A stretch of 64,000 nucleotides of DNA from Alphaproteobacteria bacterium (GCA_024742485.1 JANSYK010000002.1:1850885-1914884), one strand, 5' to 3'; numbered from the stretch's first letter, positions 20,466 to 41,094 are shown. The notes: a model not told the origin generated them from the sequence alone. Numbers and translations: made by a program.

Positions 20466-21113
20466 ATGACCCTTCATGAATTGGGACAGAAGCATGAGAC
20501 GGATAAATGGGACCACAGTCATACGTTTATGGGCGAGAGCTATCTGCATATTTATGAGCGTTATCTGGAGCCGTTGCGGGGGATGCGTTTAAACTTCCTT
20601 GAACTCGGCGTTCGCAACGGCAATTCGCTGCGCATGTGGAAGGAGTATTTTCCACATGCCCGGATATTTGGTGTGGATTTCAACGCACAGTGTAAACAGC
20701 ATGAAGAAGATCGTATCGAGATTCTGATTGCGTCCCAGGACGATGAGAGTCAGCTCGGCTCACTTGCTGACAGCGCAGGCGGGTTTGACATCATTCTGGA
20801 TGATGCAAGTCACATAAATCACCTGACACATGCATCGTTCCAGATTCTGTTTCCTCGATTGAAATCCCATGGATTTTACATCATGGAGGACCTGGGGATG
20901 TCGTGGGTCGATTACTCTGAGCATGCCGATGATCCGGCATACATGGAAGGTGTTCTCAAAACACATCAGGAAAGAGGCATCTCGATCCACAACGATCGGG
21001 AAGATTTGGAGAAACTGTTCCGCAAATTACTGTTCGACATGGACATGAACAGGGGAGATGTTCATTATTTGCACTTCTGGTCAAAAATCGCGGTCATGAA
21101 AAAAGGGGCGTGA
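20466..21113 (+). CDS. Class I SAM-dependent methyltransferase (CmcI/macrocin O-methyltransferase type)
   Basis: 215 residues. LNFLELGVRNGNSLRMWKEYFP is motif I with the preceding strand, IFGVDFNAQ carries the acidic SAM-ribose residue, and FDIILDDASHINHLT resembles the metal-binding aspartates of sugar O-methyltransferases in this family. Those enzymes methylate hydroxyls of sugars on natural products. Standing at the edge of a glycosylation cluster, it may cap a glycan by O-methylation; the target is inference. Confidence 0.8.
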   Translation: MTLHELGQKHETDKWDHSHTFMGESYLHIYERYLEPLRGMRLNFLELGVRNGNSLRMWKEYFPHARIFGVDFNAQCKQHEEDRIEILIASQDDESQLGSLADSAGGFDIILDDASHINHLTHASFQILFPRLKSHGFYIMEDLGMSWVDYSEHADDPAYMEGVLKTHQERGISIHNDREDLEKLFRKLLFDMDMNRGDVHYLHFWSKIAVMKKGA

Positions 21114-21134
21114 TTTGAGCGGGATTGCATCGCA

Positions 21135-22292
21135 ATGGATCGCACCAAATCCAGGCAACCGCAGGGACGCATGAAGCGAATTATTCAAAAGACGAGGCAT
21201 GGGGTCCGCACAGACGCATTTCGATCCGTGTGCGAGATCTTGTCACTCGACCCGTGCGATGCCGATTTCAGTCAATACGATACCTCACATCCCTTTTGGG
21301 TCGACTTGATGGATGTTGCGATGGATCACCTCGCGGTACCAGCACTTGCCTGCGCCGTGGAACAGAAGAGCTTGGGCGATCAGTTGCCATCGCTCGTCAA
21401 CCGCCATCTGGACGCAATGCTCCGCCTCAACCGAAGCCGAAATCAGCAATTGCGCGAGGAGGCATTGGAAATTGCAGACGCGTTGAATGAAATCGACATA
21501 GTTCCGATTTTTATGAAGGGGAGCGCGGGCCTGTTAACCGGATTCTATGATGAGCCTGGCATCCGCATCATGAGCGATTTGGATGTTCTGGTGCCACTGG
21601 ATACTGCAGATGATTGCCGTCACCATTTGACTGGCCTGGGATTTAAATCTGTTCCAATGATCCGGCACCCGCGCAACAAAGCTATTGAGACTTTTGAGCG
21701 GTCCTCATCCATTGCTCCAATAGACTTGCACCATCAGGTCTTCGACTATGAATATCAAAAGATACTGTCTGCCCAAGACGTCATGCGCGATTGTGTCACG
21801 CACAATTGTCACCATGCTGAGTTTGCGGTTCCCAGCGCGACCCATCAGGTGATGATCAATGTCGGCCATGCTCAGCTCAATGATCGCGGCTATTGGTACG
21901 GGAACTTGCCAATTCGACTGTTGCATGATCTCGCATGGTTGCAGAGAAAAGCTTCGGACGAGATCGATTGGCAAGAAATCAAAAGAGCGTTCACGACAAC
22001 TCAAAATACACGCGCCTTGGAATTTCACCTCCATGCAGCCAGGAAGTTGCTCGGAGTTGAGAGCGACGGCAACGTGGAACCTCAACTGGTGACGAGACTT
22101 CTGTTTTGGCGGTCGATTTCGCTCATGGGTTACCCCACCTTGCAGAGGATCAGTTTCCGCTTCATTCGGATATTCTTGCTGCTGTCGCGCGAGCTCTCCG
22201 CGGCCGAACTTCGTGCACGTCTGCGTCGCAACATGATCGATCCAGTTTGGTGGCAGCGCCACATAACGATTTTCTGGAAGGGCACACGCTGA
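21135..22292 (+). CDS. Nucleotidyltransferase family 5 (NTP_transf_5-like) protein
   Basis: 385 residues. The stretch IFMKGSAGLLTGFYDEPGIRIMSDLDVLV has the G-S plus D-x-D pattern of the uncharacterised nucleotidyltransferase family often found with PqqD-like and HprK-like proteins in peptide-modification (HPr-rel-A-like) clusters. The D-x-D near residue 148 would bind metal. It probably transfers a nucleotide or uses an NTP on a small molecule or peptide; the function of the family is unknown. It lies 21 bp after the methyltransferase gene and converges with the glycosyltransferase operon. Confidence 0.75.
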   Translation: MDRTKSRQPQGRMKRIIQKTRHGVRTDAFRSVCEILSLDPCDADFSQYDTSHPFWVDLMDVAMDHLAVPALACAVEQKSLGDQLPSLVNRHLDAMLRLNRSRNQQLREEALEIADALNEIDIVPIFMKGSAGLLTGFYDEPGIRIMSDLDVLVPLDTADDCRHHLTGLGFKSVPMIRHPRNKAIETFERSSSIAPIDLHHQVFDYEYQKILSAQDVMRDCVTHNCHHAEFAVPSATHQVMINVGHAQLNDRGYWYGNLPIRLLHDLAWLQRKASDEIDWQEIKRAFTTTQNTRALEFHLHAARKLLGVESDGNVEPQLVTRLLFWRSISLMGYPTLQRISFRFIRIFLLLSRELSAAELRARLRRNMIDPVWWQRHITIFWKGTR

Positions 22293-22336
22293 CAAGTGTT
22301 CGTGAATGTGTCTTCGCGACCCGTACGCGCTGTTGA

Positions 22337-23482
22337 TTATCGTAAATCGAGAAAACCAATTGCCCGCAGTTGGCCCACTGTGGCCCGAACTTCGGGAATG
22401 AGTGTCAGCTCATCGACTTCAAATTGCTTGCCCAATTGCGAGACTATTTCTTCCAGATTTCGTGAGCCATCACAAAGCTCCCAGATTGCCTTTCCCGAAT
22501 GGTTGAGCCACAGACTTTTTTCCTCCCTCTGGATTTCGAGCAGGATTTGGTCGTGAACCCGTCCCTCTTTCACCTCCGCTCGCCACAAGGGGCGACTGGT
22601 AATGGCCGGTGGCCGAATAGTGCCAGTCAATTCATCGATGTGATCGTTCAGTATTCTGATGAAATCACGGTCATAGTCCTCCCGCATTTCGATCGTCTCG
22701 TCGATACGTGTCCAGGGCTCATATTGGTGTTTGTGAAACAATGTTGTGCCGTCCTTGGCGCAGATGGTTTGACAGTAATGAATAATCGGCGCGTCCGGCA
22801 CATCTTTTGGATCCCAATTGGTGCAGATTCCAAGTGAGATTGGCTCGTGCTGTAAGCCATATTCTGCGCAGGCGGCCAGATAGGCGAACATATCGGCCTC
22901 CCACATTTTATGCCCGTCGGCATTGCGGTAATTGTCGCGAACGACACCACAAAGCTCCAACCAACGAGCACAGATTTTCCTCAAATCCTGTGTGTGGATG
23001 AGTGTCGGGATCATGACCGGGTTGATGCTCTCACCCACACGTGTGCAGTGGTCACCTAGAAATGAGAGCCCGGTTCCCAAACCAAACGGGTTGTCGGTTG
23101 ACGGATTGCCCGTGGGAAGGTCCACCCAGGCCTGAGAGGCAGGAAAACCTGGCGCAACGCGCCGTGTCACTGGGCTACGAAAGACACAATCGGGATCAAG
23201 AAAAAGCACAGTCCCTTCAGGCTTTTCCCTGAATACCCATTCGAGAAGGGAAGCCGGTTTGTTGTAGATCGGATAGGAATCCCCAGTGGTGTGATGAACA
23301 TCCCAAAGGCTGGTTGCAACACTATGGGCGTATTTCTGTGGTGGTAGCCTTTCAGGTGTGTTGGTCGCGACCAATCGTATCAGAGCGCCTTCTTGTCCAA
23401 CGCTCTTCCATGAGTGTTCCAGCAATTCGGATTGCCACTGCATCGCCGGATTGTCGTTGGTACTGAAAACCGTATAAAACAT
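22337..23482 (-). CDS. HPAT/SERGT-like glycosyltransferase fused to a C-terminal PqqD domain
   Basis: 381 residues in two parts. Residues 1-295 resemble plant hydroxyproline O-arabinosyltransferases and peptidyl-serine galactosyltransferases: an N-terminal strand followed by MQWQSELLEHSW, YNKPASLLEWVF, the D-x-D motif at 96-98 (FLDPDCVF), GLGTGLSFLG, MWEADMFAYLAACAEYGL near 193-210 and WDPKD...IIHY near 223-235. Residues 308-381 are a PqqD domain (LNHSGKAIWELCDGSRNLEEIV...LRAIGFL). PqqD domains bind leader peptides in RiPP pathways, so this enzyme probably glycosylates a peptide held by its own recognition domain. It is the last gene of the leftward operon from 30078. The HPAT resemblance is by motif order read by eye. 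Confidence 0.8.
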   Translation of the reverse strand: MFYTVFSTNDNPAMQWQSELLEHSWKSVGQEGALIRLVATNTPERLPPQKYAHSVATSLWDVHHTTGDSYPIYNKPASLLEWVFREKPEGTVLFLDPDCVFRSPVTRRVAPGFPASQAWVDLPTGNPSTDNPFGLGTGLSFLGDHCTRVGESINPVMIPTLIHTQDLRKICARWLELCGVVRDNYRNADGHKMWEADMFAYLAACAEYGLQHEPISLGICTNWDPKDVPDAPIIHYCQTICAKDGTTLFHKHQYEPWTRIDETIEMREDYDRDFIRILNDHIDELTGTIRPPAITSRPLWRAEVKEGRVHDQILLEIQREEKSLWLNHSGKAIWELCDGSRNLEEIVSQLGKQFEVDELTLIPEVRATVGQLRAIGFLDLR

Positions 23483-23550
23483 TCTCGTATTTCTCTCTGT
23501 TCAGTACTCTGGCCCGATATGAATTGGCCCGAGATCTGGTTCGTTCTCTA

Positions 23551-24567: not shown

Positions 24568-24600
24568 CGCGCATGAACCTCATCTTGCTCCGCAGGCGCA

Positions 24601-25500
24601 TCAGGCGCTCTTGCGACGCAGCCACCCATTGATCGTAAAGCGGCTATCGGCAAATTCTCCCGAGGGGCAATGCACGATGTCCACCTCGTGCCATTGATGA
24701 CTGGCGAATGCCACGAGGCAGTTGTTTTTGGGCGGCAGCGCAGTTGCAAAACTACCGCGGTCATGGGCCGATTGTCCGACATCGCTTCCGTAAAGCAAAA
24801 GATCGCCGCCTGAATAGGGCTTCGGTAATTTGTGAAAATAGTACACGAACGTGACCGTCCGGCCTGCTACCGCGGCCTCATTGCGATCAGAATCAGCGTG
24901 CCGCTTGAAAAAATCACCATCATTGCTCGCCGTCAGTTGGATCTCCTCTTCGTCAGACTTGAAATCAGCGACACCAAGGGCCGGCGCAATATGTGCCATG
25001 TGCAGTTTTATCCGATTGATAAAAACACTGCTCCATTTCGAATCCTTGACAGCGAAGAGGACTCTTGATTTTCGAGTCGTGTCATCCGCGTGCTTTTTCG
25101 AATCCGTCAAGACAGTGCTGCCCTCGAAATCATCCTCATTCTCCAGCGCATATTTCAGCAATTCGGCGTTCTCGCCGGGTGTCAGAAAATCATCAATCTG
25201 GACGTGGGCCGGAACGCCGCTCAATTGTGGGCTGGATGCTGTTGGATGTCCCTGGTCGGCGGGTTGGATCAAAACAGCAGGCCGGGTGATGACCGAAACC
25301 AATGTATTCGACATGAAAGTGCAGGCGGCTTTGCCATCATCCAGGGGCAATTGCATGATTGATCCGGTCTGTTGTGCGCCGGTCTGCTGCGCTGCCGCCA
25401 GGGAGACATAAAGGTCATGGAGCAATTCTGAATTGGAAGGCAAGACACAGGAGTGGCTCTGTCCTCCCTTGAGTGTCACCTCGACTTCAATATTTCGCAT
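24601..25500 (-). CDS. 2-oxoglutarate/Fe(II) oxygenase, prolyl 4-hydroxylase type
   Basis: 299 residues. The C-terminal double-stranded beta-helix has iron ligands H201 and D203 (FKRHADSD), the distal His at 271 (FASHQWHEV) and the 2-oxoglutarate-binding Arg at 287 (DSRFTINGWL), matching the prolyl 4-hydroxylase family. Residues 1-95 are a separate N-terminal region without a recognised domain. It would hydroxylate proline (or another residue) in the Pro-rich product encoded at 29722, creating a hydroxyl for glycosylation. It sits between the GlcNAc-transferase and the fucosyltransferase/kinase genes. Confidence 0.85.
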   Translation of the reverse strand: MRNIEVEVTLKGGQSHSCVLPSNSELLHDLYVSLAAAQQTGAQQTGSIMQLPLDDGKAACTFMSNTLVSVITRPAVLIQPADQGHPTASSPQLSGVPAHVQIDDFLTPGENAELLKYALENEDDFEGSTVLTDSKKHADDTTRKSRVLFAVKDSKWSSVFINRIKLHMAHIAPALGVADFKSDEEEIQLTASNDGDFFKRHADSDRNEAAVAGRTVTFVYYFHKLPKPYSGGDLLLYGSDVGQSAHDRGSFATALPPKNNCLVAFASHQWHEVDIVHCPSGEFADSRFTINGWLRRKSA

Positions 25501-25521
25501 ATCGATCCGATCTTCCCAAGT

Positions 25522-27603
25522 CTATTGCTCAGCTCTATTTTCGGCATGTTCCAAAACGCCGACCGTGCCGGCATCATTTGCCTCAATTACAAGACGCGCT
25601 GCCTCCGCAATATTGCCAAAACGCAAACTGAATACTGGCAAATTTTCAACCATGTCACAAAGTGCTTGTATCGTTGCATCGTCATTCTTTGGAAAACTCA
25701 AACAGTTTTCCAGCAGTTCTCCAACAGCCTGCGCCGGTGAAATTGGCGACAATGACGCTTCTGCATTTGAAACGAAATTTGGAAATACCACCATGGAAAC
25801 CGGTTGCAGGCTCTCAGCGACCCTACCAGCTTCAAGCGGGACAGCGCGTTTCGAAAGCGCACCAAGCTCGTCGCGCGAAAGAGCTTTCTTTGTGCCAGGT
25901 CGAACCTGTGGGGTGCAGGGAAACGGCAATGCCCGTCTGACAATTGGTTCAATTGGAACAATATCATCGGACAAAAAGGACCAACCCTGGTCGCATAGTT
26001 CAAGGACCAATGAGCTTTTCCCACGACCCCACGACCCCGGTAGGACCACCGCACCCCTGTCACTGGATGCACAGGCTGCATGAATCCAAATCAAATCAGG
26101 ATGCTGGTGGATGAATAGTCGGACCACTTCCCGATAACCCTTGCGCAGCAGTTTGGCGCCGTTGGTACCACTGCTCACAGATTTGCCATCTACCAGAAGC
26201 TTTGCCGGATCATGAGCTGTTTCGATACGCACCTCTCCGAGGGGGGCTGCATTCGAATTTTCAGACATCATCGCGAACAGATTGGCCATGGACTTCGTGA
26301 TCTCGACGTCATCGCTACTTACCGTGACAGCGCTCCCAAGAAACAAGGCCATGTGCGCGCCAGGCAGAGGTTGAACTGCACGTGATGAATTGGCGGGTTC
26401 TGGCTCAACAGCATCGCATTCAAGCTCGCGGCCGCTTGCGCGTTCAAGCATCTTGGCTTTGTCAAGGAAGCTTTCTGGCCACTCTCGCATCCACAGTTGG
26501 TTCAGCCGTTGGTTGACCCGGTTCCAGGAGTAGGGTCCCTCACCATCCTCCACCATTGTGCCCTTGTCGAGCAGGATGTCATCTCCGATGGCATGTCGGC
26601 CGCGCTCCAGCTTTGCGCCAGGGGGTGGCAATTCATTCCACAGATATTTGAACAATTCTTCTTTGCCCAAATTACCCCGCATACGCTGAATCGCACCGGA
26701 AAAGGTGCTCGTCATGGTGCCGATGAAATCTTGCGATTGTGCAGCGACAAGCTGGGAAATATATGCCAGTGCGATGCTGTCATGCGCCGGAAGATCCTGA
26801 AATTCGGAGTGGTGATTTTGAAGTATGTGATGGTCGATGAAGATGTGCTGCGGGAACGCTGATTTGATTTCATCAAAAAAGGGGTCATCAGCTTCATCCG
26901 TCACAATGACGAGTGTCTCTGATCTGCTGAAATGAGGATCAAGAGCCTCAATGACTTCGGACGGTTGTCGCTCCAGAGTCGTGACACCAAGCGTTTTCTT
27001 GAAATCACCCCGTCGGATGTGAACCGCGTTGAATGATCCGATATCTTGGGCCACAGTTTCAGAAAACAAGGATATCTCGGGCTTCGGCTTCATCCCGCGC
27101 AGAGCATCATAAGCCTGCAATTGTGCTGATTGGCCGAGATAGAAAAACGAAGAATAGTATCCCAGCGTCAGCGATTCTTTCCCGCCGGAGATAGACAGGG
27201 CAGGAATGTGCTCGAGTTTGTCATCAATGGTAACGAGGCGCTTGCGGCCTTTGGCAAAGGACCTGAAATCGTCACTGTCCACAGACATATGAGACGGAAA
27301 ATAGAAGACTGCATCCCACGGTGGAACATCACAGATGTCCTGGGCAGCGTATTTCTGTTCGATGCTTTCGTCCCAATTGATCCAGGGTATGCCCAAATCA
27401 ATCAGATCCGTTACCCGGCTGGGATACGCATTGCTGACGAGACCGTTATATTGCACAACGTTGGCAACGGGAGTTTTGTTGCCTTTCAGAATCAATAGTC
27501 GATCGGTCAGGCTGGCGACAACAACCCCCAGTTCAACGGACATGACCAGATTGCTAAGACCGGCAGCACCGCCTCGATAAACGCTGTGGATGATGGACTT
27601 CAT
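25522..27603 (-). CDS. O-fucosyltransferase-like protein fused to a C-terminal HprK-like kinase domain
   Basis: 693 residues from the ATG at 27603. The frame opens at 27729, but that would run into the upstream gene. Residues 1-330 look like protein O-fucosyltransferases: an early glycine-rich YRGGAAGLSN, HIRRGDF at 195-201 and STFS at 299-302, where the family binds GDP-fucose. Residues about 500-690 resemble HPr kinase-related proteins: LIWIHAACAS, P-loop GSWGRGKSS at 523-531 and the acidic LSDDIVPI at 544-551. A low-complexity acidic linker separates them. The fusion of a glycosyltransferase with an HprK-like phosphotransferase is very unusual; the second half may phosphorylate a peptide, sugar or carrier. 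Confidence 0.78.
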   Translation of the reverse strand: MKSIIHSVYRGGAAGLSNLVMSVELGVVVASLTDRLLILKGNKTPVANVVQYNGLVSNAYPSRVTDLIDLGIPWINWDESIEQKYAAQDICDVPPWDAVFYFPSHMSVDSDDFRSFAKGRKRLVTIDDKLEHIPALSISGGKESLTLGYYSSFFYLGQSAQLQAYDALRGMKPKPEISLFSETVAQDIGSFNAVHIRRGDFKKTLGVTTLERQPSEVIEALDPHFSRSETLVIVTDEADDPFFDEIKSAFPQHIFIDHHILQNHHSEFQDLPAHDSIALAYISQLVAAQSQDFIGTMTSTFSGAIQRMRGNLGKEELFKYLWNELPPPGAKLERGRHAIGDDILLDKGTMVEDGEGPYSWNRVNQRLNQLWMREWPESFLDKAKMLERASGRELECDAVEPEPANSSRAVQPLPGAHMALFLGSAVTVSSDDVEITKSMANLFAMMSENSNAAPLGEVRIETAHDPAKLLVDGKSVSSGTNGAKLLRKGYREVVRLFIHQHPDLIWIHAACASSDRGAVVLPGSWGRGKSSLVLELCDQGWSFLSDDIVPIEPIVRRALPFPCTPQVRPGTKKALSRDELGALSKRAVPLEAGRVAESLQPVSMVVFPNFVSNAEASLSPISPAQAVGELLENCLSFPKNDDATIQALCDMVENLPVFSLRFGNIAEAARLVIEANDAGTVGVLEHAENRAEQ

Positions 27604-27640
27604 GCGTGTTGCGATTGGCTGGGGAGAGTTGTGGGTGTCG

Positions 27641-28240
27641 TCAATTTGCGTCCAGATCCCAGTCCAGAGGAGTATAGTGGATAAAAATGTTGGCGTAGTA
27701 TTCGCCGTCAAGAGCATAAGGACGGCCATGCTTCAGTTTTGCCCCCTCAAAGAACACCATTTCGCCAGGTTCAATGGAGATTTCGTGCGCCACGCCATCG
27801 TGATCCTCAATATAGAGGGGCCAGGCACTGTTGAGGCGATGATCGACGCAAATCGTTGCACTTACCGCATGTGTTCGCGAGCGGTCCACATGGTTGTAGA
27901 GGTAACTTCCCGGTTGATAGACCCGAATACCGTAACAAGCTGCTTTGCGAAGCGTCCGACCACTCCATTCTTCGTGGGCCGGCTGTAGGTCGGTCAAAAG
28001 TTGCTGATTGAATGTTTCGTCCTGATAGACCAGGGAAGGGTAAGCCCTTTCATTCTCGGTTTCGATGAATCCGTCGCTCGCCTCATAGTGAAATTTGTGA
28101 ATATTTGACAGGAAGTGCGTGCGCAGTCGTTCGAACAGCACCGCATCCAGTTTTGATTTGGCAAACCCCAGGCCAAGATTCGGAACCCGCTCCAATTCGT
28201 CGCGTTGAGCTTCGATCAGGCGACTTGGTGTTTCATACAT
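27641..28240 (-). CDS. Second 2-oxoglutarate/Fe(II) oxygenase (prolyl-hydroxylase-like)
   Basis: 199 residues from the ATG at 28240, which overlaps the upstream stop as ATGTATGA; ATG 28288 (with AAGGAGG further upstream) would add 16 residues. The iron ligands are H117 and D119 (LYNHVDRSRTH) and the distal His is H171 (LKHGRPYALDGEYY). The usual Arg/Lys for 2-oxoglutarate is not obvious after H171, though R173 is close, so cofactor binding may be non-standard. WPLYIED and EPGEMVFFEG are typical core strands. It is probably a second hydroxylase with different residue specificity from the one at 24601. Confidence 0.78.
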   Translation of the reverse strand: MYETPSRLIEAQRDELERVPNLGLGFAKSKLDAVLFERLRTHFLSNIHKFHYEASDGFIETENERAYPSLVYQDETFNQQLLTDLQPAHEEWSGRTLRKAACYGIRVYQPGSYLYNHVDRSRTHAVSATICVDHRLNSAWPLYIEDHDGVAHEISIEPGEMVFFEGAKLKHGRPYALDGEYYANIFIHYTPLDWDLDAN

Positions 28241-29721: not shown

Positions 29722-30078
29722 CTACGTTACAGGAACAGAAGGGAGCGGAGTCGGCGAAGCTGTCGGCGTATTTGTCGGCGGAGCCGTCGGTGCACCGGTT
29801 GGCGAACGGGTCGGCGCCGCCGTAGTGCCGGGCGCCAGTGTCGGCATGGGAACACTGCCGGGACTCATGGCCGGTTGGGCGAATACAGCATTGGGAAGAT
29901 TGACTGACATGATCACCGGTGCCGCCCAAGCAGCCTTGACCAAACCACGCTTGGTGATGCCATCATCATCCTGCTCAGCAGCATCCGCTGCCTGCTCAAG
30001 CTCGTTGACCCTCTTGCGCAGGGCCTCAAGTTCATCATTGCTGTCATTAGACACTGAATCGGGGTCTTTTTTCGTCAT
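29722..30078 (-). CDS. Pro/Thr-rich secreted-type protein, candidate substrate (precursor) of the modification cluster
   Basis: 118 residues in three parts. Residues 1-40 are charged and mostly acidic, with a heptad-like DELEALRKRVNELEQAAD. Residues 41-67 form a signal-like segment (KRGLVKAAW...NLPNAVFA) with a plausible signal-peptidase site after A67. Residues 68-118 form a tail with 15 Pro, 11 Thr and 5 Ser in 51 positions, mostly P-T and A-P-T units, with no aromatic or acidic residue. It is the first gene of the leftward operon of hydroxylases and glycosyltransferases, where RiPP precursors usually sit. The ribosome-binding site is weak (AGGGCGAC). I infer that the tail is hydroxylated and O-glycosylated and that the N-terminus is recognised by PqqD domains. 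It has no known homologue that I can name. Confidence 0.8.
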   Translation of the reverse strand: MTKKDPDSVSNDSNDELEALRKRVNELEQAADAAEQDDDGITKRGLVKAAWAAPVIMSVNLPNAVFAQPAMSPGSVPMPTLAPGTTAAPTRSPTGAPTAPPTNTPTASPTPLPSVPVT

Positions 30079-32682: not shown

Positions 32683-33690
32683 TCAGGCACCATTTAAATT
32701 CAGCTTCTCCCTGACCTCCGGCAGTTTGATGAACCCTTCAAAAAAGTCGCTTGAGAATCGCGCCGCACTTTCGGGTGACAGATGTGATCCGTCAGCCGTT
32801 TGCAGTCCTTCAAAGGAAGGCAGTATGTAGGGCATACCCAGCCGTTCTGACAACCAGGACAGATGATTTGTTTCTACCCGATAATATGGAGCTGTGGTCA
32901 GAACGATCAAAGTGCCGCGTGCGTCCATTTCCTGCTTGAATTCGGTTGCAAATTCCAGGGCACGCGGAAAACTGTCGCGCTCTTCGCCTCTCTCTATGTC
33001 ATATCGGTATTTGGGCTCCAGAACATTACGCCACCACCCACTTTGAGACGAACGATAGTGGATCCAATTTGAGGTCAATCTGCCGTCAAAATATTCTATT
33101 CGCGGCAAAGTTCGGTGTAATGCAATTGATAGCCACCACTTGGCCGTCCCCTCTATCACAGCCTTAACGGCATTCCAGGTGCCCATATCAACGACCTGCT
33201 GCGCCCAGCGCGAGTAATTTCCGCTGAAGATAAAGGGTCCGCCATTGACGACCACGATTTTTGGTCGCAGATCGTGCCGCCGAAACAGATCAGTTGCAAA
33301 TCGTGCTCCGTCGGCGTGACCAACTGCGAGATTGAATGTTGTAAGTCCCAGTTTTTTTGCGGCACGGGTGATAGGTTCTTCACGCAGCCCGAGTTGAGTA
33401 CGCGAGTTGCCGACAAAAATGATGTCCGCTTTTCTGGCTTGCTTTATGGAATCGCCCAAACCGTAATAGAGAATTGGATGGGACAATTCCTTTTCGCCGG
33501 AGAACACAAAAAATGCATCCTCACCGGGATCACCAAATTCGGGCATAGTCTGAATTTTGGGATGTATGCCCGGGCGCAGATTCAGCTGCGGTAAAAGCCA
33601 TACCGAGGTACCAAAGGAAGTTGCAAAGATCAAAGCGGGAACGAGCCAGTGCAGGATCAAGCGAACATCAAACTTTCCTTTCGCAGCCAT
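32683..33690 (-). CDS. SGNH/AlgJ-DltD-like protein, partner of the MBOAT acyltransferase
   Basis: 335 residues with one N-terminal membrane anchor (about 11-33) and a periplasmic domain. IIFVGNSRTQLGLRE near residue 90 is the Ser-containing block of SGNH-type acyl-transfer proteins and DGSHLSPESA near 300 gives the Asp-x-x-His. It starts 14 bp after the MBOAT stop. Such pairs move an acyl (often acetyl) group across the membrane onto a sugar or polymer; here the target could be the glycoprotein or an exopolysaccharide. Confidence 0.72.
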   Translation of the reverse strand: MAAKGKFDVRLILHWLVPALIFATSFGTSVWLLPQLNLRPGIHPKIQTMPEFGDPGEDAFFVFSGEKELSHPILYYGLGDSIKQARKADIIFVGNSRTQLGLREEPITRAAKKLGLTTFNLAVGHADGARFATDLFRRHDLRPKIVVVNGGPFIFSGNYSRWAQQVVDMGTWNAVKAVIEGTAKWWLSIALHRTLPRIEYFDGRLTSNWIHYRSSQSGWWRNVLEPKYRYDIERGEERDSFPRALEFATEFKQEMDARGTLIVLTTAPYYRVETNHLSWLSERLGMPYILPSFEGLQTADGSHLSPESAARFSSDFFEGFIKLPEVREKLNLNGA

Positions 33691-33704
33691 CCTTCGTGAA
33701 GTCC

Positions 33705-35174
33705 CTAAAACTGGAAATAGATAAATGTTTGAACGGACGAGTACATCATCAGAACTGCAGCGAGCATACCACCTGCGTAGATTGATTTTTCATAGGCCCC
33801 GGCTGGACCAATCGGGGTGCGTTCGCCAAGCAGAGCCCTTGCGTGAAACAGCCAGACCGCCATGCTCAAACACCAGCCAAAAACAAGAAGGCCGTCTATC
33901 TTGTTTTGGCCGTGAAATCCGTCGATTGCCTGCGGCAAAATCAGCAGCGCATGTTGGGCAATGTGCATGGCCTGCACAATGCTCTCTGAGCGAAACAGGC
34001 TGAGGCTGAAAATCCAGACCAGTTGAACGACGGCAAACCAGGCGAGCATTTGTGCGATGGATTTCGGCTTGTTGAGGCCCAGTGTCCGTTCGGCCAACAG
34101 AGCGAGACCCAACACACCACCCCACGCCAGAAAGGTCCAGTTTGCGCCGTGCCAAAGGCCACTCAGGATCATGACCAACAGCAGGTTCAATGCCACCCGG
34201 GCAGCTGTTGACTTGTGACCTCCTAAAGGGATGTAGACATAGTCGCGCATCCATTGGGACAGCGTGATATGCCACCGCCGCCAGAAGTCTGAAAAACTGG
34301 TGGCGATAAAGGGTGCATTGAAATTGATGGGGAGCCGGAACCCCATTTGATAGGCAAGGCCGCGAGCGATATCGGAGTATCCGGCGAAGTCGCAGAACAG
34401 CTGATAGGCAAAAAACACCATCAGCGAGAGCGCCAGCAACCCATTTGGTTCGCTGGCGGCCTGTTCCCAATGTTGATCGACGATTGTTCCCAGATTGTCG
34501 GCAATGACCAATTTCAAAAACAAGCCCCGCAGGATCAGGTAACTTCCCTCCAAAAAGACACGGATGTGAAAGCGCCGCTTGCGATCAAACTGATAGAAAA
34601 AGCTTCTGGCCCGGACAATCGGGCCAGCGACCAGCTGAGGAAAGAAAGCGATGTAGCAGGCGAACCGAAGAAAATTCCTTTCGGCCCTGATGTCACCCCG
34701 ATAAACATCGATTGTATAACTCAGAGACTGGAACGTATAAAACGAGATACCAATCGGCAGAACAATGTCAGGAAGGCTCCAACCTGTGAATGATGCGCCC
34801 TGTGCGGACGCAACGGCATGCCCCGCCTGGTTGGCCGAAGTTACAAGAAATCCGGCATATTTGAACCACGCCAGCAAACCCAGATTCAGCACGATTGAAA
34901 TCAAGACAATCTGCGTCGTTCTTCGTTTCACTGCACGCGCGGGCGTTTCGCTTGCGTCTTCGTGTAGCTGCGCATCGATCAAGCGACCAGCGATATAATC
35001 GACGGCCGTGCTGAACAGGATCAGAAAGATATACTGAGGAACGTGCCAAGCATAGAAAACCCAACTCAGTGCGAGCAGGGCAATGATTCGGAGCTGGGTT
35101 TTGCTGCCGGTCCCCCAGCGAACAATGAGCGCCAGCAAATAGAGACCGAGGAAGGATGCGGAGACAAAGCTCAA
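33705..35174 (-). CDS. MBOAT family O-acyltransferase (AlgI/DltB type)
   Basis: 489 residues, polytopic with about eleven membrane segments. The active-site His lies in MILSGLWHGANWTFLAWG, and WRRWHITLSQWMRDYVYIPLGG is the conserved MBOAT loop. It presents an activated acyl group to the SGNH partner downstream. Its start overlaps the stop of the GT61 gene (ATGA). Confidence 0.93.
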   Translation of the reverse strand: MSFVSASFLGLYLLALIVRWGTGSKTQLRIIALLALSWVFYAWHVPQYIFLILFSTAVDYIAGRLIDAQLHEDASETPARAVKRRTTQIVLISIVLNLGLLAWFKYAGFLVTSANQAGHAVASAQGASFTGWSLPDIVLPIGISFYTFQSLSYTIDVYRGDIRAERNFLRFACYIAFFPQLVAGPIVRARSFFYQFDRKRRFHIRVFLEGSYLILRGLFLKLVIADNLGTIVDQHWEQAASEPNGLLALSLMVFFAYQLFCDFAGYSDIARGLAYQMGFRLPINFNAPFIATSFSDFWRRWHITLSQWMRDYVYIPLGGHKSTAARVALNLLLVMILSGLWHGANWTFLAWGGVLGLALLAERTLGLNKPKSIAQMLAWFAVVQLVWIFSLSLFRSESIVQAMHIAQHALLILPQAIDGFHGQNKIDGLLVFGWCLSMAVWLFHARALLGERTPIGPAGAYEKSIYAGGMLAAVLMMYSSVQTFIYFQF

Positions 35175-37684
35175 TATGGCAGCTTTTCTGAGTCTGCGAG
35201 AATTTGGCTGACGAGGCTGACAACATCTTCGCCGTCAACCCGCATGTCAGGTTTTTCAAAATCAAAGTACTCCGGTTCGACAACCCAATAGTGATGTCCG
35301 GCTGCCTGTGAGAGCCCATAAAAATGGCTTCTGCGGAAATTTCCGGTGGAATAATCCGCGCTGGAAATCGGCACGAATTCGATAACGTGGGTGCCCGGTG
35401 GGCAAAAGGCCATGTTGGACAGACCGGCACCATGCGGGCCGACGACAATTCTTGCTCTGGCAAACAGGGACAGATCACTATCCCAGTCTCCGTTGCTCCG
35501 AAATATGACTAACTCAAGTCCATACTGGTCGGCGAGGTCTCTGATGGGCGCCAGGAATCGCTCTTGATCTCTGACGGACCGATTGAATCCCTGGCGGTCT
35601 GCATAAATTATCAGCTCCCGGCTGTCCCTTTTCAGCAGGCCGAGGCGTTTTTGAACCGGTCGCAGCGCGTGCCGGGGATAGATGCTGGGCGCTCCGATGC
35701 TCGGCGAAAAATGTGGAAACAGGACATGATCGCAATGAACAACATGACGTTCATGGGCACTGATTGGCTTTTGCACGATGCGGTCCTGCAAACCCAGCTT
35801 GCCCCAGAGCCAGCGTGCGAAGGGTGCATCTCGATCATGACTTACGATTTTGACCCGCTCGAACCCGGGGGATTCGATCATATCTATGACCGAAGCCAGC
35901 GGCGCCAGGGCATCAAGGATAAAGTGTTGAAAGGCATTTCCCATCCAGCCGGAAACAAGAACCCCGGCCTCGATGTGCTCGATCGTTTCGGTCTCGTTGT
36001 AAATGGCGGGGTCATCACCTGCCCACCAGCGACCGAAGCAAAAATAGCGCTTCCGATCAAATACCACATTGTCACCGATATAGGCGTCCCTCAAATACAG
36101 GACGAATGTCGTGTTGATTTGGACGGGCGATGAAAATGGATCATGGGCGGCATCCACACCCCTTGCCGGATGAAGCGGAGAAAGTACGCGGCTTTTTACG
36201 ACGTCCTCGGTGTTCACCTCGGCAAGAGTATTAATCACCTGTTTGTATGGATCGCGAATGTGAGCCAGGTGAAAATCAAAGTCGAAGCTGGCCCCGTCAT
36301 TTGATCCGGTGTTCGACGATCTTGTGGCGCCAATAGCACGTGCGATATCTGTCGTTCTTGGCCCCGACAGCACCGGGCCCTGGGAATGATGATCTGGTTC
36401 AACGTCTCGAGGCAGCGCACTGGCACCCGGCGAGATTTGAGATGAGAAACGTTGTGGAGCTGTGCCTTCAAGATGGGAGGATGCCGCGTCTGCCGGTTCT
36501 TCAAGGATACGGTGTATCAGTGAGAGAACTTCAGTCGCATCGACCTGCATGCCGTAGTCATCAAAGTCGAATACCTCTGGTTCAACCACCCAGAAATGAT
36601 GGCCCGCAGCCTGAGAGAGACCATAAAATGGCGTCCACCTTGATGTCTCTGCGGTAAAGTCAGCCTCGGAAATCGGAACAAACTCGATGACATGGGTTCC
36701 GGGTGCGCAAAATGCGATATTGGCAAGCCCGGCGCCGTGCGGCCCCAATACGATTTTTGCCCGCCGGAACAGCGCCAGATCTTCGTCCCAGTTTCCCTTG
36801 CCGCCAAATATTCTCAACTCAAGACCATAACTGGCTGCGAGGGTTTCCAGTGGTTTCAGGAACATGTCCGGGTTTTCCACAGAACGGAACAGCCCGGATC
36901 GGTCCGCGTAGACAATCAAATCCTGCGTCTGGCCGTCCATAAGCCCCAACCGCTTTTGGATGGGTGCCAGCACACGGCGTGGATAAATACTCTTTGCCCC
37001 CATGCCGGGTGAGTAATGCGGAAACAGGAGCTGATCACAGTGAACGACATGTCGCTCCTGAGCGTTCAGTGGCTTTTCGATCACTCTTTCCGATAGTCCC
37101 AGTCTTTTCCAAAGCCAGCGCGCAAAGGCCGCATCCTTATTGTGGCTGATGATCTTTATGTGTTCGAAACCTGGCGTTTCCAGCAATTCAATAACAGCGG
37201 CAAGGGGTGGCAATGCATCCAAAATGAAAAGTTGAAACGCCGAGCCACCCCAGGCCGAGATAAGGACACCGGCTTCAATGTGCTCGATCGTTTCAGTTTG
37301 GCTGTAAAGCCCCGGGTCATCGCCTGCCCACCACCGGCCAAACGAAAAGTACCGCTCTTGATCGAACACCACATTGTCGCCCGCATAGGCGTTTTCCAGA
37401 TGCAGCAAAAAGGCCGTGTCGATCTGGACTGGAGGCGAAAACGGATCCTTTCCGGCAATCAACCCTCTTGCGGGGCGAAGAGGTGTGAGGAGGCGCTTCT
37501 TGATGAGATTTTGAGAGTCCACCTCGCCCAGGGTGTCTACGACCCGCTTGTTCGGATTTTTTACAACGGCAAGATGATGGTCGAGATCAAATCCACATTT
37601 TGAAGCGGAACCGGGCAACATCTCAGATTTGAGATTTCCGGCATCGCATTCGGAAAACCATGGATCCGACCTGCCACCCGTCAT
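35171..37684 (-). CDS. Two tandem GT61 glycosyltransferase domains in one polypeptide
   Basis: 837 residues made of two homologous copies, about 32-394 and 468-837, joined by a 70-residue low-complexity linker. Each has the GT61 (DUF563) signature: NVVFD.ERY...GRWWAGDDP near the start, ADR.G..RSV, then GPHGAGLANIAFC (314-326) and GPHGAGLSNMAFC, followed by THVIEFVPIS. GT61 includes plant xylan arabinosyl- and xylosyltransferases and animal EOGT, which puts GlcNAc on Ser/Thr. No membrane segment is visible. The duplication suggests two sequential sugar additions. Confidence 0.88.
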   Translation of the reverse strand: MTGGRSDPWFSECDAGNLKSEMLPGSASKCGFDLDHHLAVVKNPNKRVVDTLGEVDSQNLIKKRLLTPLRPARGLIAGKDPFSPPVQIDTAFLLHLENAYAGDNVVFDQERYFSFGRWWAGDDPGLYSQTETIEHIEAGVLISAWGGSAFQLFILDALPPLAAVIELLETPGFEHIKIISHNKDAAFARWLWKRLGLSERVIEKPLNAQERHVVHCDQLLFPHYSPGMGAKSIYPRRVLAPIQKRLGLMDGQTQDLIVYADRSGLFRSVENPDMFLKPLETLAASYGLELRIFGGKGNWDEDLALFRRAKIVLGPHGAGLANIAFCAPGTHVIEFVPISEADFTAETSRWTPFYGLSQAAGHHFWVVEPEVFDFDDYGMQVDATEVLSLIHRILEEPADAASSHLEGTAPQRFSSQISPGASALPRDVEPDHHSQGPVLSGPRTTDIARAIGATRSSNTGSNDGASFDFDFHLAHIRDPYKQVINTLAEVNTEDVVKSRVLSPLHPARGVDAAHDPFSSPVQINTTFVLYLRDAYIGDNVVFDRKRYFCFGRWWAGDDPAIYNETETIEHIEAGVLVSGWMGNAFQHFILDALAPLASVIDMIESPGFERVKIVSHDRDAPFARWLWGKLGLQDRIVQKPISAHERHVVHCDHVLFPHFSPSIGAPSIYPRHALRPVQKRLGLLKRDSRELIIYADRQGFNRSVRDQERFLAPIRDLADQYGLELVIFRSNGDWDSDLSLFARARIVVGPHGAGLSNMAFCPPGTHVIEFVPISSADYSTGNFRRSHFYGLSQAAGHHYWVVEPEYFDFEKPDMRVDGEDVVSLVSQILADSEKLPY

Positions 37685-37871
37685 TTCAAGGAACTGCCGT
37701 CTACTACTGCTACCATTGATCTCTCCCCCGGAAACCCAGTGCCGATTTCAGCTATTCCAGACCGCTGTATCATCCTGACAAGCGAAGTAGAAGGTCTCGA
37801 TCATCTCACTGTTTCCGGTCAGGAATTCCATGATTTCCAACGACGAATAGCTAAGAACTTGGATTCGAACC

Positions 37872-39089
37872 TCAAAATGCGGGGACCGGAGCGTCCGATA
37901 GAATCTTTTCAACAAGGCCAACAATCTCATCGGCGTCGACCCGCATGTCAGGCTGATCGAAATCGAAATTCTCCGGCTCGACAACCCAGTGCTGATGTCC
38001 GGCCGATTGGGCAAGACCGTAGAAATGAGTCACTTTGTAATAGGGCCTGGTTCGCGTGGCTCTGGATATTGGAACGAATTCAACAACATGTGTGCCGGGC
38101 GGAGAATAAACCATGTTGGCCAACCCAGCACCATGAGGCCCGATGATGACTTTGGCTCGTCGAAACAGAGAAAGATCTGCGTCCCAGTCCCCGACACTGT
38201 TAAAAATGACAAATTTCATACCACGGGACGCTACAAGAGATTTCAATCGCGGCAGAACCTTCTGTTGGTTCTCCACCGATCGTTTCAAACCAGTTCTGTC
38301 AGCATAGATCACCAGGTCTTGCTTGGAGTTGCCCGTTAGACCGAGACGCCTCTGGATTGGACGAAGAACGTTGCGCGGATATCTGCTCAGCACGTTGAAA
38401 CCGGGAGAAAAATGGGGAAACAGGACATGATCACAATGCACGATGTGTTGTTCAAACACGTTAGTCGGCTTTTCGACAATCCGATCCTGCAATCCCAACT
38501 TGCGCCAGAACCAACGTGCGTATTCAGCGCCTTCCCGATGGCTGACTATTTTCACATGCTCGAAGCCCGGAGCTTCCAATAGATCGATAACGGCAGAAAG
38601 GGGCGCCAGAGCATCCAGTATGAAATGTTGGAAATGAGCGCCGGCCCAGGCTGAAATGAGCACGCCGGTATCGATGTGTTCTATTGTCGTTGTCTGCCCA
38701 TAATGTGCTGGATTGTTACCGGCCCACCAGCGATCGAATGAGTAGTAACATTCTCGGTCAAACACCACGTTGTCGCCCATATAGGCATCGTGCAAATGCA
38801 ACAGGAAGACGCGGTCGAATTGTACGGGCGGAGAATACTTGTTTACTGCCGGATTGAGCCCGCGAGCCGGATGCAAGCGTGATGAAAATCCTTTTGAGAG
38901 ATATTTTTCCGGATCGACCTCTGACAGGTTTTTCACCACCCTTTTGTCTGGGGCTCGGATGCGAGCGAGGTGGCGGTCAAGACTGAAGGGTGCATCACCC
39001 ATCCCGGTCAATCTTTGTCGACCCATCAATTGTGAAACGTTCTCCGCATCCGCTAAGCCGAACCATGGACCTGTTTCCCGCTCAACCAT
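37872..39089 (-). CDS. GT61 glycosyltransferase, third copy of the tandem module
   Basis: 405 residues, homologous along its length to both halves of the upstream-numbered neighbour at 35171: FSLDRHLARIRAPDKRVVKNLSEVD, NVVFDRECYYSFDRWWAGNNP, ADRTGLKRSVEN and GPHGAGLANMVYSPPGTHVVEFVPIS. The 187-bp gap to the next gene is unlike the tight spacing elsewhere and may be a remnant of the duplication. The same class of donor sugar is likely, acceptor unknown. Confidence 0.88.
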   Translation of the reverse strand: MVERETGPWFGLADAENVSQLMGRQRLTGMGDAPFSLDRHLARIRAPDKRVVKNLSEVDPEKYLSKGFSSRLHPARGLNPAVNKYSPPVQFDRVFLLHLHDAYMGDNVVFDRECYYSFDRWWAGNNPAHYGQTTTIEHIDTGVLISAWAGAHFQHFILDALAPLSAVIDLLEAPGFEHVKIVSHREGAEYARWFWRKLGLQDRIVEKPTNVFEQHIVHCDHVLFPHFSPGFNVLSRYPRNVLRPIQRRLGLTGNSKQDLVIYADRTGLKRSVENQQKVLPRLKSLVASRGMKFVIFNSVGDWDADLSLFRRAKVIIGPHGAGLANMVYSPPGTHVVEFVPISRATRTRPYYKVTHFYGLAQSAGHQHWVVEPENFDFDQPDMRVDADEIVGLVEKILSDAPVPAF

Positions 39090-39145
39090 GCGATGCGACT
39101 TTCATCTGGGTAGTCAAAGACGGTCTTGAGTCAGGTTCGCCAAAT

Positions 39146-40042
39146 TCAGCGTATCCCATGAGAATATTCCAATTCTCGAAGAAGGCGAATGTCGGCTTCG
39201 TAAACGCGCTCAATGAACGACAACGAACTCTGATCAAGGTCATCGGGTTTAATCATATACCGCCGATATCCCAGGTCCTCTGCGCGAGCCCCGCGCGATC
39301 TGCTGACAGGAAGGGTGGGGCACTTTCCCATATTCAATCGCTCGAAAACGTTGCTCATCCCGTCCTGAATTCTCTCCACATGAAAAAACTGGTCGACGCG
39401 GACACCCGATAGTAGCCTTGCCTGGGGGAGCAAGTGGATGTCCCAGCAAGCACTGCCGAGTTCGCTCAAAAACCTTTTAAATCTTGCAGGCGTATCCTTC
39501 ATTGTAAAAAAATCGCGCCCGGATTGCCCCATCGAGGTTAACTCAAATCGATAAGAGACTTCTTGATAGGCGGACAAAAGGCGTGAAATTGGCTCCCGCA
39601 AAGCTGCAAATGTGTAGTACCGATTTCGGATCTCCGGACTTATGGTTGTGTATCTATGCTCGCGACTTTCATAGATGTCGCGTCTCAATTCTTCGCGCAG
39701 GGTGCTCGATGCATTTTTCGGAAGAAGCAAGCAGATGAACTCGAATCGGTCTGAAACAACGCAGACAACATCAAAGGGGTCAATGGCCCCGATTGCAGCA
39801 AGGATTTCAACGCAGTGGTCTACGTCCCGGCTGATTGATCCAACTTGAATCCCGTAATTTTCAGCAAGTTGTTTTGCGATGTCGCTTACAACATTCTTGC
39901 CATTGCAAAGCCTCAATATGTCTAGTGCGGATTGATTGAGTTCGATTGTGTCCGATAGCCCGTCTATAGACACCGCGATATTGCCACGGTTGCTCTCGAT
40001 CAGATGATATTCTCTTGCTCTAGGCCTGCTGTCCGGATCCAT
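39146..40042 (-). CDS. N-terminal PqqD domain fused to a sulfotransferase
   Basis: 298 residues from the ATG at 40042 (an ATG at 40078 would add 12). Residues about 12-92 are PqqD-like (IELNQSALDILRLCNGKNVVSDIAKQL). The rest is a Sulfotransfer_2-type enzyme: the PAPS 5'-phosphosulfate loop LPKNASSTLREEL (near 107-119), then FAALREPISRLLSAYQ as the 3'-phosphate region, and QFFHVERIQD. Animal relatives sulfate glycans such as HNK-1. A leader-guided sulfation of the glycopeptide is the likely role. This is the third PqqD fusion in the cluster. Confidence 0.82.
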   Translation of the reverse strand: MDPDSRPRAREYHLIESNRGNIAVSIDGLSDTIELNQSALDILRLCNGKNVVSDIAKQLAENYGIQVGSISRDVDHCVEILAAIGAIDPFDVVCVVSDRFEFICLLLPKNASSTLREELRRDIYESREHRYTTISPEIRNRYYTFAALREPISRLLSAYQEVSYRFELTSMGQSGRDFFTMKDTPARFKRFLSELGSACWDIHLLPQARLLSGVRVDQFFHVERIQDGMSNVFERLNMGKCPTLPVSRSRGARAEDLGYRRYMIKPDDLDQSSLSFIERVYEADIRLLRELEYSHGIR

Positions 40043-40167
40043 ATTGTCAGGTCGCTGGTTAGCGCAGAAATGTATCACGTTTCACATTACCGATATCTTC
40101 CAGATCTCATTTTCAGTCTATGTGTAAGTGAGGAACGCTGTGCGCCCAGAATTTCTTCCTCAAATTG

Positions 40168-41094
40168 TCAGCGCAAGGGCGTGTTAAGCCGCTGACCTGA
40201 CCCGGAGCTGTCTTTTGGGGCCAGGAACATCCACTCTCCTGCGAAACCTCGTCCCTCACTGAATACAAGCATCCTGTCATTATCGTTGAAATACTCCAGC
40301 TCTCGATACTTGCTGATTTGGATATCCGCCCGCTTCAAGAACTCGACATCAAAATACTGTGATGCCCGGTCCACCAATTTGGATTTTAGCTTCTCTCCAT
40401 CTTTGAGATATCGAGCGTGAATCTCAACGATAACATGCATATGTCGTATTTTTTGGAGGAGTTTGCCAGTGAGCAGCTGAAACTCACCCCCTTCAATATC
40501 GCAGAGTATCACTCCGGATGGATATTCGCTGATCGATGAAACTATAGACTTCAGATCAACTTCTCCAAAGATTGTTACCCTGTCAGCAATACCATTATTT
40601 GCAGCACTGTCCCTGAGGACATCTCTGCCTTTTTCCGACATTTCAAAACAGATTGCGTGCTCGAATAACCCGGCCTTTACTGCTCCAACAGCGAAATACC
40701 CGTCAGCCGATCCAATATCGACAAAAACAGAAGCAGGCGCCGCCAATTCAGCAATTTTTTCCTGGACGTGACGCTCATAGGTTCCCAGAATTTGACCACC
40801 AACATCAAGTTGCCCCCACCAGTTGTTTTCCGGCAAAGTCATACCTTTGAATGGCCCGTATGCGACTGTGTTATTATGGGTTGCCGCAAGGTACTCAGAC
40901 ATTTTCAGTCTTGCGGCATTGATTTCACCATCATGTGCCTGCGTGTTGGCAACAACCACTTCGCTCACGCCGATCTTCTTTCGCAACACATAAACCAGCC
41001 CGGTCAAGCCATAGGTTCTAAACACTGAATTCGCAGTTCTGATCTTTCTCACCAGGTGACCGAAAGAACCTTTTGTGTCTAGGTTTGATGCCAT
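40168..41094 (-). CDS. FkbM-like SAM-dependent methyltransferase
   Basis: 308 residues from the ATG at 41094; the frame is open to 41289 but the extra residues look non-coding. Motif I is SVFVDIGSADGYFAVGA, followed by CFEMSEKGRDVL and GVILCDIEGGEFQLL, typical of FkbM/methyltransferase-31-type enzymes that O-methylate sugars. It is the right-hand end of the modification cluster and mirrors the methyltransferase at the left end (20466). Confidence 0.75.
   Translation of the reverse strand: MASNLDTKGSFGHLVRKIRTANSVFRTYGLTGLVYVLRKKIGVSEVVVANTQAHDGEINAARLKMSEYLAATHNNTVAYGPFKGMTLPENNWWGQLDVGGQILGTYERHVQEKIAELAAPASVFVDIGSADGYFAVGAVKAGLFEHAICFEMSEKGRDVLRDSAANNGIADRVTIFGEVDLKSIVSSISEYPSGVILCDIEGGEFQLLTGKLLQKIRHMHVIVEIHARYLKDGEKLKSKLVDRASQYFDVEFLKRADIQISKYRELEYFNDNDRMLVFSEGRGFAGEWMFLAPKDSSGSGQRLNTPLR

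Follow-up and report, generated by a model that had tools for sequence, protein, structure and literature searches.

A candidate leader-guided pathway for a hydroxyproline glycopeptide in an alphaproteobacterial genome

We investigated a 64,000-nucleotide stretch from an Alphaproteobacteria bacterium (GCA_024742485.1, JANSYK010000002.1:1850885-1914884; hereafter the window), in which positions 21135-30078 hold an eight-gene unit built around a small precursor-like protein with a Pro/Thr-rich tail. We consider it probable that this minimal cassette represents a new class of ribosomally synthesised and post-translationally modified peptide (RiPP) system, in which enzymes bound to the leader through RiPP recognition elements (RREs) would hydroxylate and glycosylate the tail before its likely export by twin-arginine translocation (Tat). 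The basis in hand consists of gene content, synteny, domain fusions in relatives, a conserved leader joined to a variable tail, predicted folds and conserved catalytic residues, and it is from these that we infer every reaction, binding event, export step and sugar identity. The locus carries the predicted marks of a RiPP system, i.e., a precursor gene whose product joins a conserved leader to a variable core, an RRE within the cluster and an RRE-type leader motif.

Precursor and core enzymes

The genes of the unit form a minus-strand operon running from 30078 to 22337 (precursor, PqqD_GT, 2OG_B, FucT_HprK, 2OG_A, a PF11397 glycosyltransferase (GT) and HPAT_PqqD; Table 1), with NTP5, a PF14907 protein at 21135-22292, convergent with it. 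Domains were called by a Pfam scan of 20 cluster proteins at Pfam's own cut-offs, which bore out the gene cluster described in the initial annotation of this region; the same genes recur at other loci, and all PqqD domains found in the genome lie here. The grouping is more than a chance neighbourhood, an explanation that we set aside on the synteny across five of five cassettes.

The Pro/Thr-rich, secreted-type small protein that had been placed at the head of the operon is indeed there: it has 118 residues and belongs to a family of 23 proteins (its own included) recovered by protein database search, with a single copy found in its own genome. The N-terminal two thirds are conserved across the family (a charged stretch followed by the consensus T-K/R-R-x-V-x-x-A-A-W-A-A-P-V-I-x-S-V-N-L-P-N-x-V-F-A), and the remainder is a variable Pro/Thr/Ala/Ser tail. 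Together with the five loci described below, the family gave 28 precursors, which are not independent cases (P0016 and the L003 precursor look like one gene); WxxPx[V/I/L], as WAAPVI or a close variant, was found in 27 of these 28. P0020 is without the motif segment, and P0014 reads GKR yet was missed by the twin-residue pattern. Composition was studied in 25 distinct tails (1050 residues: Pro 27%, Thr 19%, Ala 18%, Ser 13%), which share ancestry, so that the following enrichments describe the family and are no proof of selection: 77% of prolines were preceded by A, S or T as against 52% in shuffles (s.d. 2.5; top of 2000, 62%), and 49% were followed by T as against 20% (highest, 28%). Pro-Pro was rare (14 of 280). 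Between two close loci, L002 and L003, enzymes are 87-96% identical and leaders agree at 73 of 81 aligned residues, while the tails, of 43 and 26 residues, share 18 identities. A conserved leader with a variable tail is the usual pattern of RiPP precursors. Two family members, P0022 and P0023, are paralogues with near-identical tails, both on contigs of 28,600, and one locus may thus carry two substrates.

Two prolyl-hydroxylase-type oxygenases had been proposed, and both are nearest prolyl 4-hydroxylases by similarity or predicted fold, with invariant metal ligands. Specifically, 2OG_A matches the Dictyostelium prolyl 4-hydroxylase 6t8m by profile (E 2.1e-6), with H201/D203/H271 kept in four of four sequences. 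2OG_B matched no Pfam family, nor any PDB sequence by phmmer or profile search; its model lies nearest to the prolyl 4-hydroxylases of P. putida (4j25, E 2.3e-8) and PHD2, and H133/D135/H187 are present in 48 of 48 aligned relatives. Among the GTs, the HPAT-like (hydroxyproline O-arabinosyltransferase-like) and Skp1-GlcNAcT-like assignments stand well above their cut-offs, the former match covering positions 1-215 of 307 and the latter falling in PF11397, which we take to be the family holding Skp1-GlcNAcT. The model of PqqD_GT resembles glycogenin, LgtC and the Skp1 galactosyltransferase (6mw5), and its DxD residues are conserved in aligned relatives (D217 in 66 and D219 in 69 of 69). Long N-terminal regions without a Pfam name occur in 2OG_A and in the PF03407 GT of the accessory region (31447-32649); that of 2OG_A is conserved in L002-L004.

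The GT-A fold nearest GT8 (28233-29501), the HprK-related kinase half of FucT_HprK (25522-27603) and the PF14907 protein were absent from the initial annotation. Its picture of a hydroxyproline glycopeptide organised like a RiPP is supported in part: it holds for the precursor, the hydroxylase-like enzymes, the PqqD domains and the leader motif, and had overlooked a kinase/PF14907 branch. The Walker A residues GSWGRGKS of FucT_HprK are conserved in four of four sequences. The pseudomycoidin peptide is phosphorylated by a kinase, and hexoses are attached to the phosphate by a nucleotidyltransferase (PMC8498205). By analogy, a phosphorylation/phosphoglycosylation branch is likely here, and the tail or its glycan might plausibly bear a phosphosugar.

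A profile scan with the precursor in a one-genome-per-species collection found five loci (L001-L005), four of which carry the cassette: L002 and L003 in Rhizobiaceae metagenome-assembled genomes (MAGs) of the window's genus, L004 in a Hyphomicrobiales MAG and L005 in an uncultured bacterium. With the window counted, the precursor, PqqD_GT, 2OG_B, FucT_HprK and the PF11397 GT occur in all five cassettes, down to 41% identity; 2OG_A and HPAT were seen in four (FucT_HprK is cut by the end of the L005 contig), and NTP5 was seen in three (HPAT is cut by the end of the L004 contig). Three of the other loci keep the gene order; the fourth (L005, 41-50% identical) shows partial rearrangement and retains the block PqqD_GT, 2OG_B, FucT_HprK. 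At L003 the eight-gene unit is flanked on one side by a DHDPS-like gene, beyond an unassigned 147-aa frame, and on the other by a cNMP-binding gene, an IclR regulator being nearby.

The protein database holds at least 144 relatives of PqqD_GT and at least 326 of 2OG_B, the few named sources including Acidobacteriota, Nitrospirales, Devosia sp., Tepidamorphus sp. 3E244 and Oricola sp.; 120 of each were listed, of which 69 and 48, respectively, entered the alignments used for folding. Among the listed PqqD_GT relatives, 36 of 120 (29 of 70 at >=8 kb; own window included) lie on contigs equal in size to a listed 2OG_B contig, which suggests, from equal contig sizes only, that the two genes are usually linked.

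Leader recognition and the proposed route

The core idea of a ribosomal Pro/Thr-rich substrate that is hydroxylated on proline and glycosylated, with PqqD domains that steer the enzymes to the leader, survived both sequence and fold tests. PF05402 is matched three times above its cut-off of 23.4 bits (HPAT_PqqD 46.6, PqqD_GT 46.1 and the accessory sulfotransferase PqqD_ST 37.7 bits), and these are the only PqqD domains found at E <= 0.001 in the 6.87-Mb genome, each fused to a transferase. The RRE fold of the PqqD_GT model is like that of TbiB1, whose structure was solved with its leader (TMt 0.82-0.84), and the PqqD profile matches PqqD (PqqC/D), TbiB1 and TfuB1 at E 2.4e-7 to 1.3e-4. All 13 listed PqqD_GT relatives longer than 600 residues combine PqqD, GT and 2OG_B in one chain, so that RRE, GT and hydroxylase likely share one substrate there; in the relative P0226, PqqD is joined directly to 2OG_B. 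As to the motif, PMC13381572 describes crystal structures from linear polyphosphorylated peptides (LPP) and paeninodin in which RREs grip [Y/W]xxPx[L/V/I/F/A], with Y-to-A or P-to-A weakening the LPP complex; the PbaB1/LppB complexes (9x90, 9x8z) show two hydrophobic pockets. According to the survey in PMC12710340, many RRE groups, including those of FusE, McjB, PqqD and StsC, recognise W/Y/LxxP/L/I. The PqqD domains likely guide their enzymes to the precursor through its WxxP motif, a stretch that may act first as an RRE handle and later as an export signal.

The route that we propose would begin with a leader made up of the N-terminus plus T-K/R-R-x5-W-A-A-P-V-I, whose W51, P54 and I56 would be gripped by the PqqD_GT recognition domain in the manner of lasso and LPP RREs on [Y/W]xxPx[L/V/I]. 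Inside the cell, 2OG_B and 2OG_A would convert prolines in [A/S/T]-P-T units to hydroxyproline. Short glycans would then be assembled there, and possibly on Thr/Ser, by PqqD_GT, the PF11397 enzyme and HPAT_PqqD; it is the enzyme families that point to hydroxyproline as the site of the sugars. FucT_HprK and the PF14907 protein might contribute a further sugar and a phosphate or phosphosugar (cf. the kinase and nucleotidyltransferase of pseudomycoidin), and the glycan could be capped by the accessory PqqD-sulfotransferase, GT61 enzymes, GT77-type GT, MBOAT protein and methyltransferases. The hydroxylated glycopeptide would then leave via Tat with the same hydrophobic segment as its signal; such export, with cleavage after VFA, is predicted from the leader, and TatC is encoded in the genome.

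A broader conjecture, which we hold tentatively and with doubt slightly ahead of belief, is that several RRE-armed enzymes (two GTs and a sulfotransferase in the window, joined by a prolyl hydroxylase in relatives) share a single WxxP handle that is itself the Tat signal, so that the substrate would be kept in the cytoplasm until hydroxylated, glycosylated and phosphorylated, and release of the handle would permit export. On this view, bacteria would possess an independent or ancestral form of the extensin-like chemistry, with a product that could be reprogrammed simply by changing the tail.

If the proposed pathway is real, it would constitute a RiPP class whose leader recruits prolyl hydroxylases and GTs, and a dedicated bacterial pathway of hydroxyproline glycosylation, a counterpart of plant cell-wall glycoprotein building. 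To our knowledge, such dedicated glycosylation is otherwise found in plants, algae and amoebae, and no report of a bacterial one appeared among the titles and abstract openings listed from the open-access literature. A minimal unit of eight genes should be rebuildable in E. coli, and it could become a programmable maker of extensin- or mucin-like glycopeptides.

Counter-evidence, alternatives and known systems

Several observations weigh against this pathway. On the side of recognition and export, the PqqD profile reached only E 0.078 and 0.24 with LppB and PbaB1, the two RREs from whose complexes with leaders the motif is defined; WxxP sits within the signal-like hydrophobic stretch and so may be kept for export instead of RRE binding; and the scan of 20 cluster proteins revealed neither a dedicated leader peptidase nor a dedicated exporter. 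Some enzyme labels are also soft. The fold of 2OG_B fits the non-prolyl oxygenases BesD and HalB within one Z unit, the PF11397 GT has no meaningful PDB match, the HprK label (TIGR04352, 71 bits) is far under the NCBI equivalog cut-off of 200, and the POFUT-like label given initially to FucT_HprK fell short, its O-FucT match (PF10250) scoring 29.4 bits against a cut-off of 31.5.

The linkage of precursor and enzymes is likewise open to bias. Among the four other cassettes none is a cluster without the Pro-rich substrate gene, a case that would have spoken against the pathway; all of them were fetched with the precursor profile, which makes its presence there a biased test, and two were also reached without it. 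Specifically, a search with HPAT_PqqD in 60 relatives and the own genome found it in the own genome, in two of seven same-genus genomes and in none of the 53 others; the two finds are the genomes of L002 (G002) and L003 (G004), with the precursor present, and the unbiased linkage test is thus only two of two in a single genus. L001, from the same MAG as L003, holds a second precursor that stands alone: no cassette gene was found within 10 kb of it. This precursor lies at 10013-10375, a prolyl-oligopeptidase-family gene (6644-8734) about 1.3 kb upstream, and no PqqD gene was found in the 20-kb locus. A leader scan with two short patterns gave 115 matching stretches, only five of them confirmed relatives; distant precursors or unrelated signal peptides may be among the remaining 110. 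Finally, the cassette is rare or patchy among sequenced species: PqqD_GT was found only in the own genome among 397 order, 398 phylum and 385 class genomes (with up to four candidates per genome scored at first look among the matches listed, and misses possible), as was PF23452 among 398 phylum genomes.

The alternative that survives best, although we regard it as unlikely, is a mucin-like variant in which the substrate is still RRE-guided, the sugars sit on tail Thr/Ser and the 2-oxoglutarate (2OG) enzymes act elsewhere, on another residue or a sugar. Thr and Ser together make up 32% of the tails against 27% for Pro, nearly half of the prolines precede Thr, the fold does not fix the substrate of 2OG_B, and the PF11397 and O-FucT families presumably include Thr/Ser-modifying members. 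By contrast, both oxygenases are nearest prolyl 4-hydroxylases (by similarity and by a predicted fold that, as said, also fits other 2OG oxygenases), one of them is fused to the RRE-GT in every listed long relative, and the HPAT domain is above its cut-off; these observations favour sugars on hydroxyproline.

A kinship with LPP and paeninodin, in which the product would chiefly be a peptide that the HprK-like kinase and the PF14907 protein phosphorylate and phosphoglycosylate, the rest being decoration, seems to us improbable. The present system does share much with LPP and with the lasso peptides paeninodin and pseudomycoidin: PqqD-type RREs, a [Y/W]xxPx[L/V/I] leader motif, a conserved N-terminus with a variable C-terminus, a patchy distribution, and an HprK-like kinase with a nucleotidyltransferase (here TIGR04352 below its cut-off and PF14907 at 123.9 bits), the same kinase/nucleotidyltransferase/RRE set being described for LPP in PMC13381572. 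However, the three RREs here are fused to transferases and none is discrete as in LPP; neither the SipW-like peptidase and MsbA-like ABC transporter of LPP nor the macrolactam synthetase and B2 protease of lasso peptides were matched among the 20 cluster proteins; and two prolyl-hydroxylase-like enzymes and at least three GTs would be left unexplained. The Pro/Thr tail and a leader doubling as a signal-like segment also set the present system apart. Membership in the lasso or LPP group was rejected, as the defining genes were not seen among those proteins.

Least of all do we favour an ordinary exopolysaccharide or surface-glycan locus whose GTs, epimerase, MBOAT and GT61 enzymes make a polysaccharide beside an incidental secreted Pro/Thr protein: accessory GTs of this kind are typical of polysaccharide loci and the stretch 43238-51499 beyond the cluster carries genes for Wzy_C, Wzz, a polysaccharide deacetylase and GT2, but the nearest recognised neighbours of the minimal cassette in L003 are unrelated genes, which led us to set a simple polysaccharide locus aside, the precursor adjoins the enzymes in five of five cassettes (four fetched with the precursor), and we know of no role for PqqD domains or prolyl hydroxylases in polysaccharide synthesis. 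Phage or plasmid cargo was also rejected, since none of 226 pattern matches in viral contigs proved to be a relative and tblastn found no match in 72,556 plasmid records.

The proposed hydroxyproline pathway has parallels in eukaryotes. Plant extensins and arabinogalactan proteins are O-glycosylated on hydroxyproline by a prolyl 4-hydroxylase followed by HPAT and GT77 enzymes, and the window likewise encodes prolyl-4-hydroxylase-like enzymes, an HPAT-domain GT, a PF03407 GT and an AP/SP/TP-rich substrate; unlike the plant system, it is bacterial, clustered and, by our proposal, RRE-guided, with a single small precursor that is likely cytoplasmic before export. In the Dictyostelium Skp1 pathway a prolyl hydroxylase is followed by a PF11397-type GlcNAcT and a GT8-like galactosyltransferase, all of which have similar counterparts here (by the matches to 6t8m, PF11397 and 6mw5), whereas in Skp1 itself, a folded protein, a single proline is modified and the present system has a repetitive tail and RRE fusions. 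Fusions of an RRE to a GT, as seen here, are included in the updated RRE-Finder (PF00535; PMC12710340); the main text of that source does not contain the words hydroxylase, sulfotransferase or kinase, and the passages and sections 6-7 considered here describe no such pathway or substrate.

Accessory genes and genomic setting

The other half of the cluster (30372 to about 41100) encodes an epimerase, a PF03407 GT, an MBOAT protein with a possible SGNH partner, GT61 enzymes in two open reading frames (ORFs), a PqqD-sulfotransferase and an FkbM-like methyltransferase (Table 1).

Table 1. Features of the cluster with their positions in the window and the support for each.
Feature	Position	Strand	Support
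Methyltransferase-like protein, accessory	20466..21113	+	sub-cutoff PF13578 match (21.1 bits); none of L001-L005 with a reported homologue
NTP5, PF14907 (NTP_transf_5) nucleotidyltransferase	21135..22292	+	123.9 bits; same neighbour in L002, L003
HPAT_PqqD, hydroxyproline O-arabinosyltransferase-like GT + PqqD	22337..23482	-	PF23452 45.5 bits (cut-off 23.9); PF05402 46.6
PqqD domain of HPAT_PqqD	22349..22522	-	residues 321-378
GT_PF11397	23551..24567	-	PF11397 (GlcNAc) 142.6 bits (cut-off 21); in 5/5 cassettes
2OG_A, prolyl-4-hydroxylase-like oxygenase with extra N-terminal region	24601..25500	-	2OG-FeII_Oxy_3 PF13640 55.9 bits (cut-off 27)
FucT_HprK, O-FucT-like domain fused to HprK-related kinase	25522..27603	-	PF10250 29.4 bits; TIGR04352
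HprK-related kinase domain of FucT_HprK	25591..26109	-	TIGR04352 E 8.7e-20
2OG_B, prolyl-4-hydroxylase-fold oxygenase	27641..28288	-	model pLDDT 92.9; ATG 28288 behind AAGGAGG-like site
PqqD_GT, PqqD/RRE fused to GT-A-fold GT nearest GT8	28233..29501	-	PF05402 46.1 bits; model pLDDT 90.6
PqqD domain of PqqD_GT	29211..29441	-	residues 21-97
Precursor, 118 aa, leader + Pro/Thr-rich tail	29722..30078	-	family alignment, 23 members incl. itself
Variable Pro/Thr tail, putative core, residues 68-118	29725..29877	-	[AST]P and PT enrichment over shuffles; differs between near relatives
Leader, residues 1-67, charged N-terminus + signal-like segment	29878..30078	-	conserved across family alignment
T42-K43-R44...V65-F66-A67, Tat-like signal segment (KR/RR + hydrophobic + xFA)	29878..29955	-	TKR/TRR/SKR ahead of W in 26/28
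W51-A-A-P54-V-I56, candidate RRE-recognition motif [Y/W]xxPx[L/V/I/F/A]	29911..29928	-	27/28 precursors
NDP-sugar epimerase, near GDP-mannose 3,5-epimerase and UDP-glucose 4-epimerase	30372..31388	+	68% identical neighbour of L004 precursor
PF03407 (GT77-type) GT	31447..32649	+	56.8 bits (cut-off 22)
Possible SGNH-type partner of MBOAT protein (weak)	32683..33690	-	operon position only; DUF1574 E 0.26, nothing above cut-off
MBOAT O-acyltransferase	33705..35174	-	PF03062 105.6 bits
Tandem GT61 GT	35171..37684	-	PF04577 114.7 bits, 2 stretches
GT61 GT	37872..39089	-	PF04577 72 bits
PqqD_ST, PqqD + sulfotransferase	39146..40078	-	PF05402 37.7, PF03567 (Sulfotransfer_2) 38.4 bits
PqqD domain of PqqD_ST	39782..39955	-	residues 42-99
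FkbM-like methyltransferase (weak)	40168..41289	-	sub-cutoff matches

Most names given earlier to these accessory genes stand, since the GT77, GT61, sulfotransferase and NDP-sugar epimerase labels are all above their Pfam cut-offs (PF04577 in both ORFs). The acylation pair is retained only for its MBOAT half, the SGNH-like half at 32683-33690 being without Pfam support, and the two sugar-type methyltransferase labels are weaker than first given, both matches lying below cut-off. An extensin- or mucin-like sulfated glycopeptide had also been inferred; what stands of this is the core of Pro/Thr substrate, predicted hydroxylation and glycosylation, while sulfation, acylation, epimerase and GT61 are accessory because the bare eight-gene unit occurs in L002 and L003 without them alongside. 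Different carriers appear to decorate a common core. L004 adds an epimerase of the same kind (68% identical), a NodZ-like GT and two further PqqD fusions, one to a GT10-type enzyme and one to a GT25-type enzyme; L005 adds a GT11-family enzyme and three sulfotransferases, and a sulfotransferase 37% identical to PqqD_ST adjoins its precursor.

G+C content is 57-58% at 14-20 kb, drops to 50-54% over 20-42 kb and returns to 55-58% at 42-48 kb, a dip that suggests acquired DNA. A permease on the left flank was found in four of five same-genus genomes searched, and the Wzy-like gene of the right flank had no match in any of five. The RNA fold of the gap behind the precursor gave no signal (z -1.1), and a promoter scan found four promoter-like sites against 0.9 expected, two of them upstream of the precursor on the minus strand, all being consensus matches only. 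By eye, the GT61 domains over 35171-39089 look duplicated. The exopolysaccharide-type locus adjoining the cluster at 43238-51499 also includes a GNAT acetyltransferase beside its Wzy_C, Wzz, polysaccharide deacetylase and GT2 genes.

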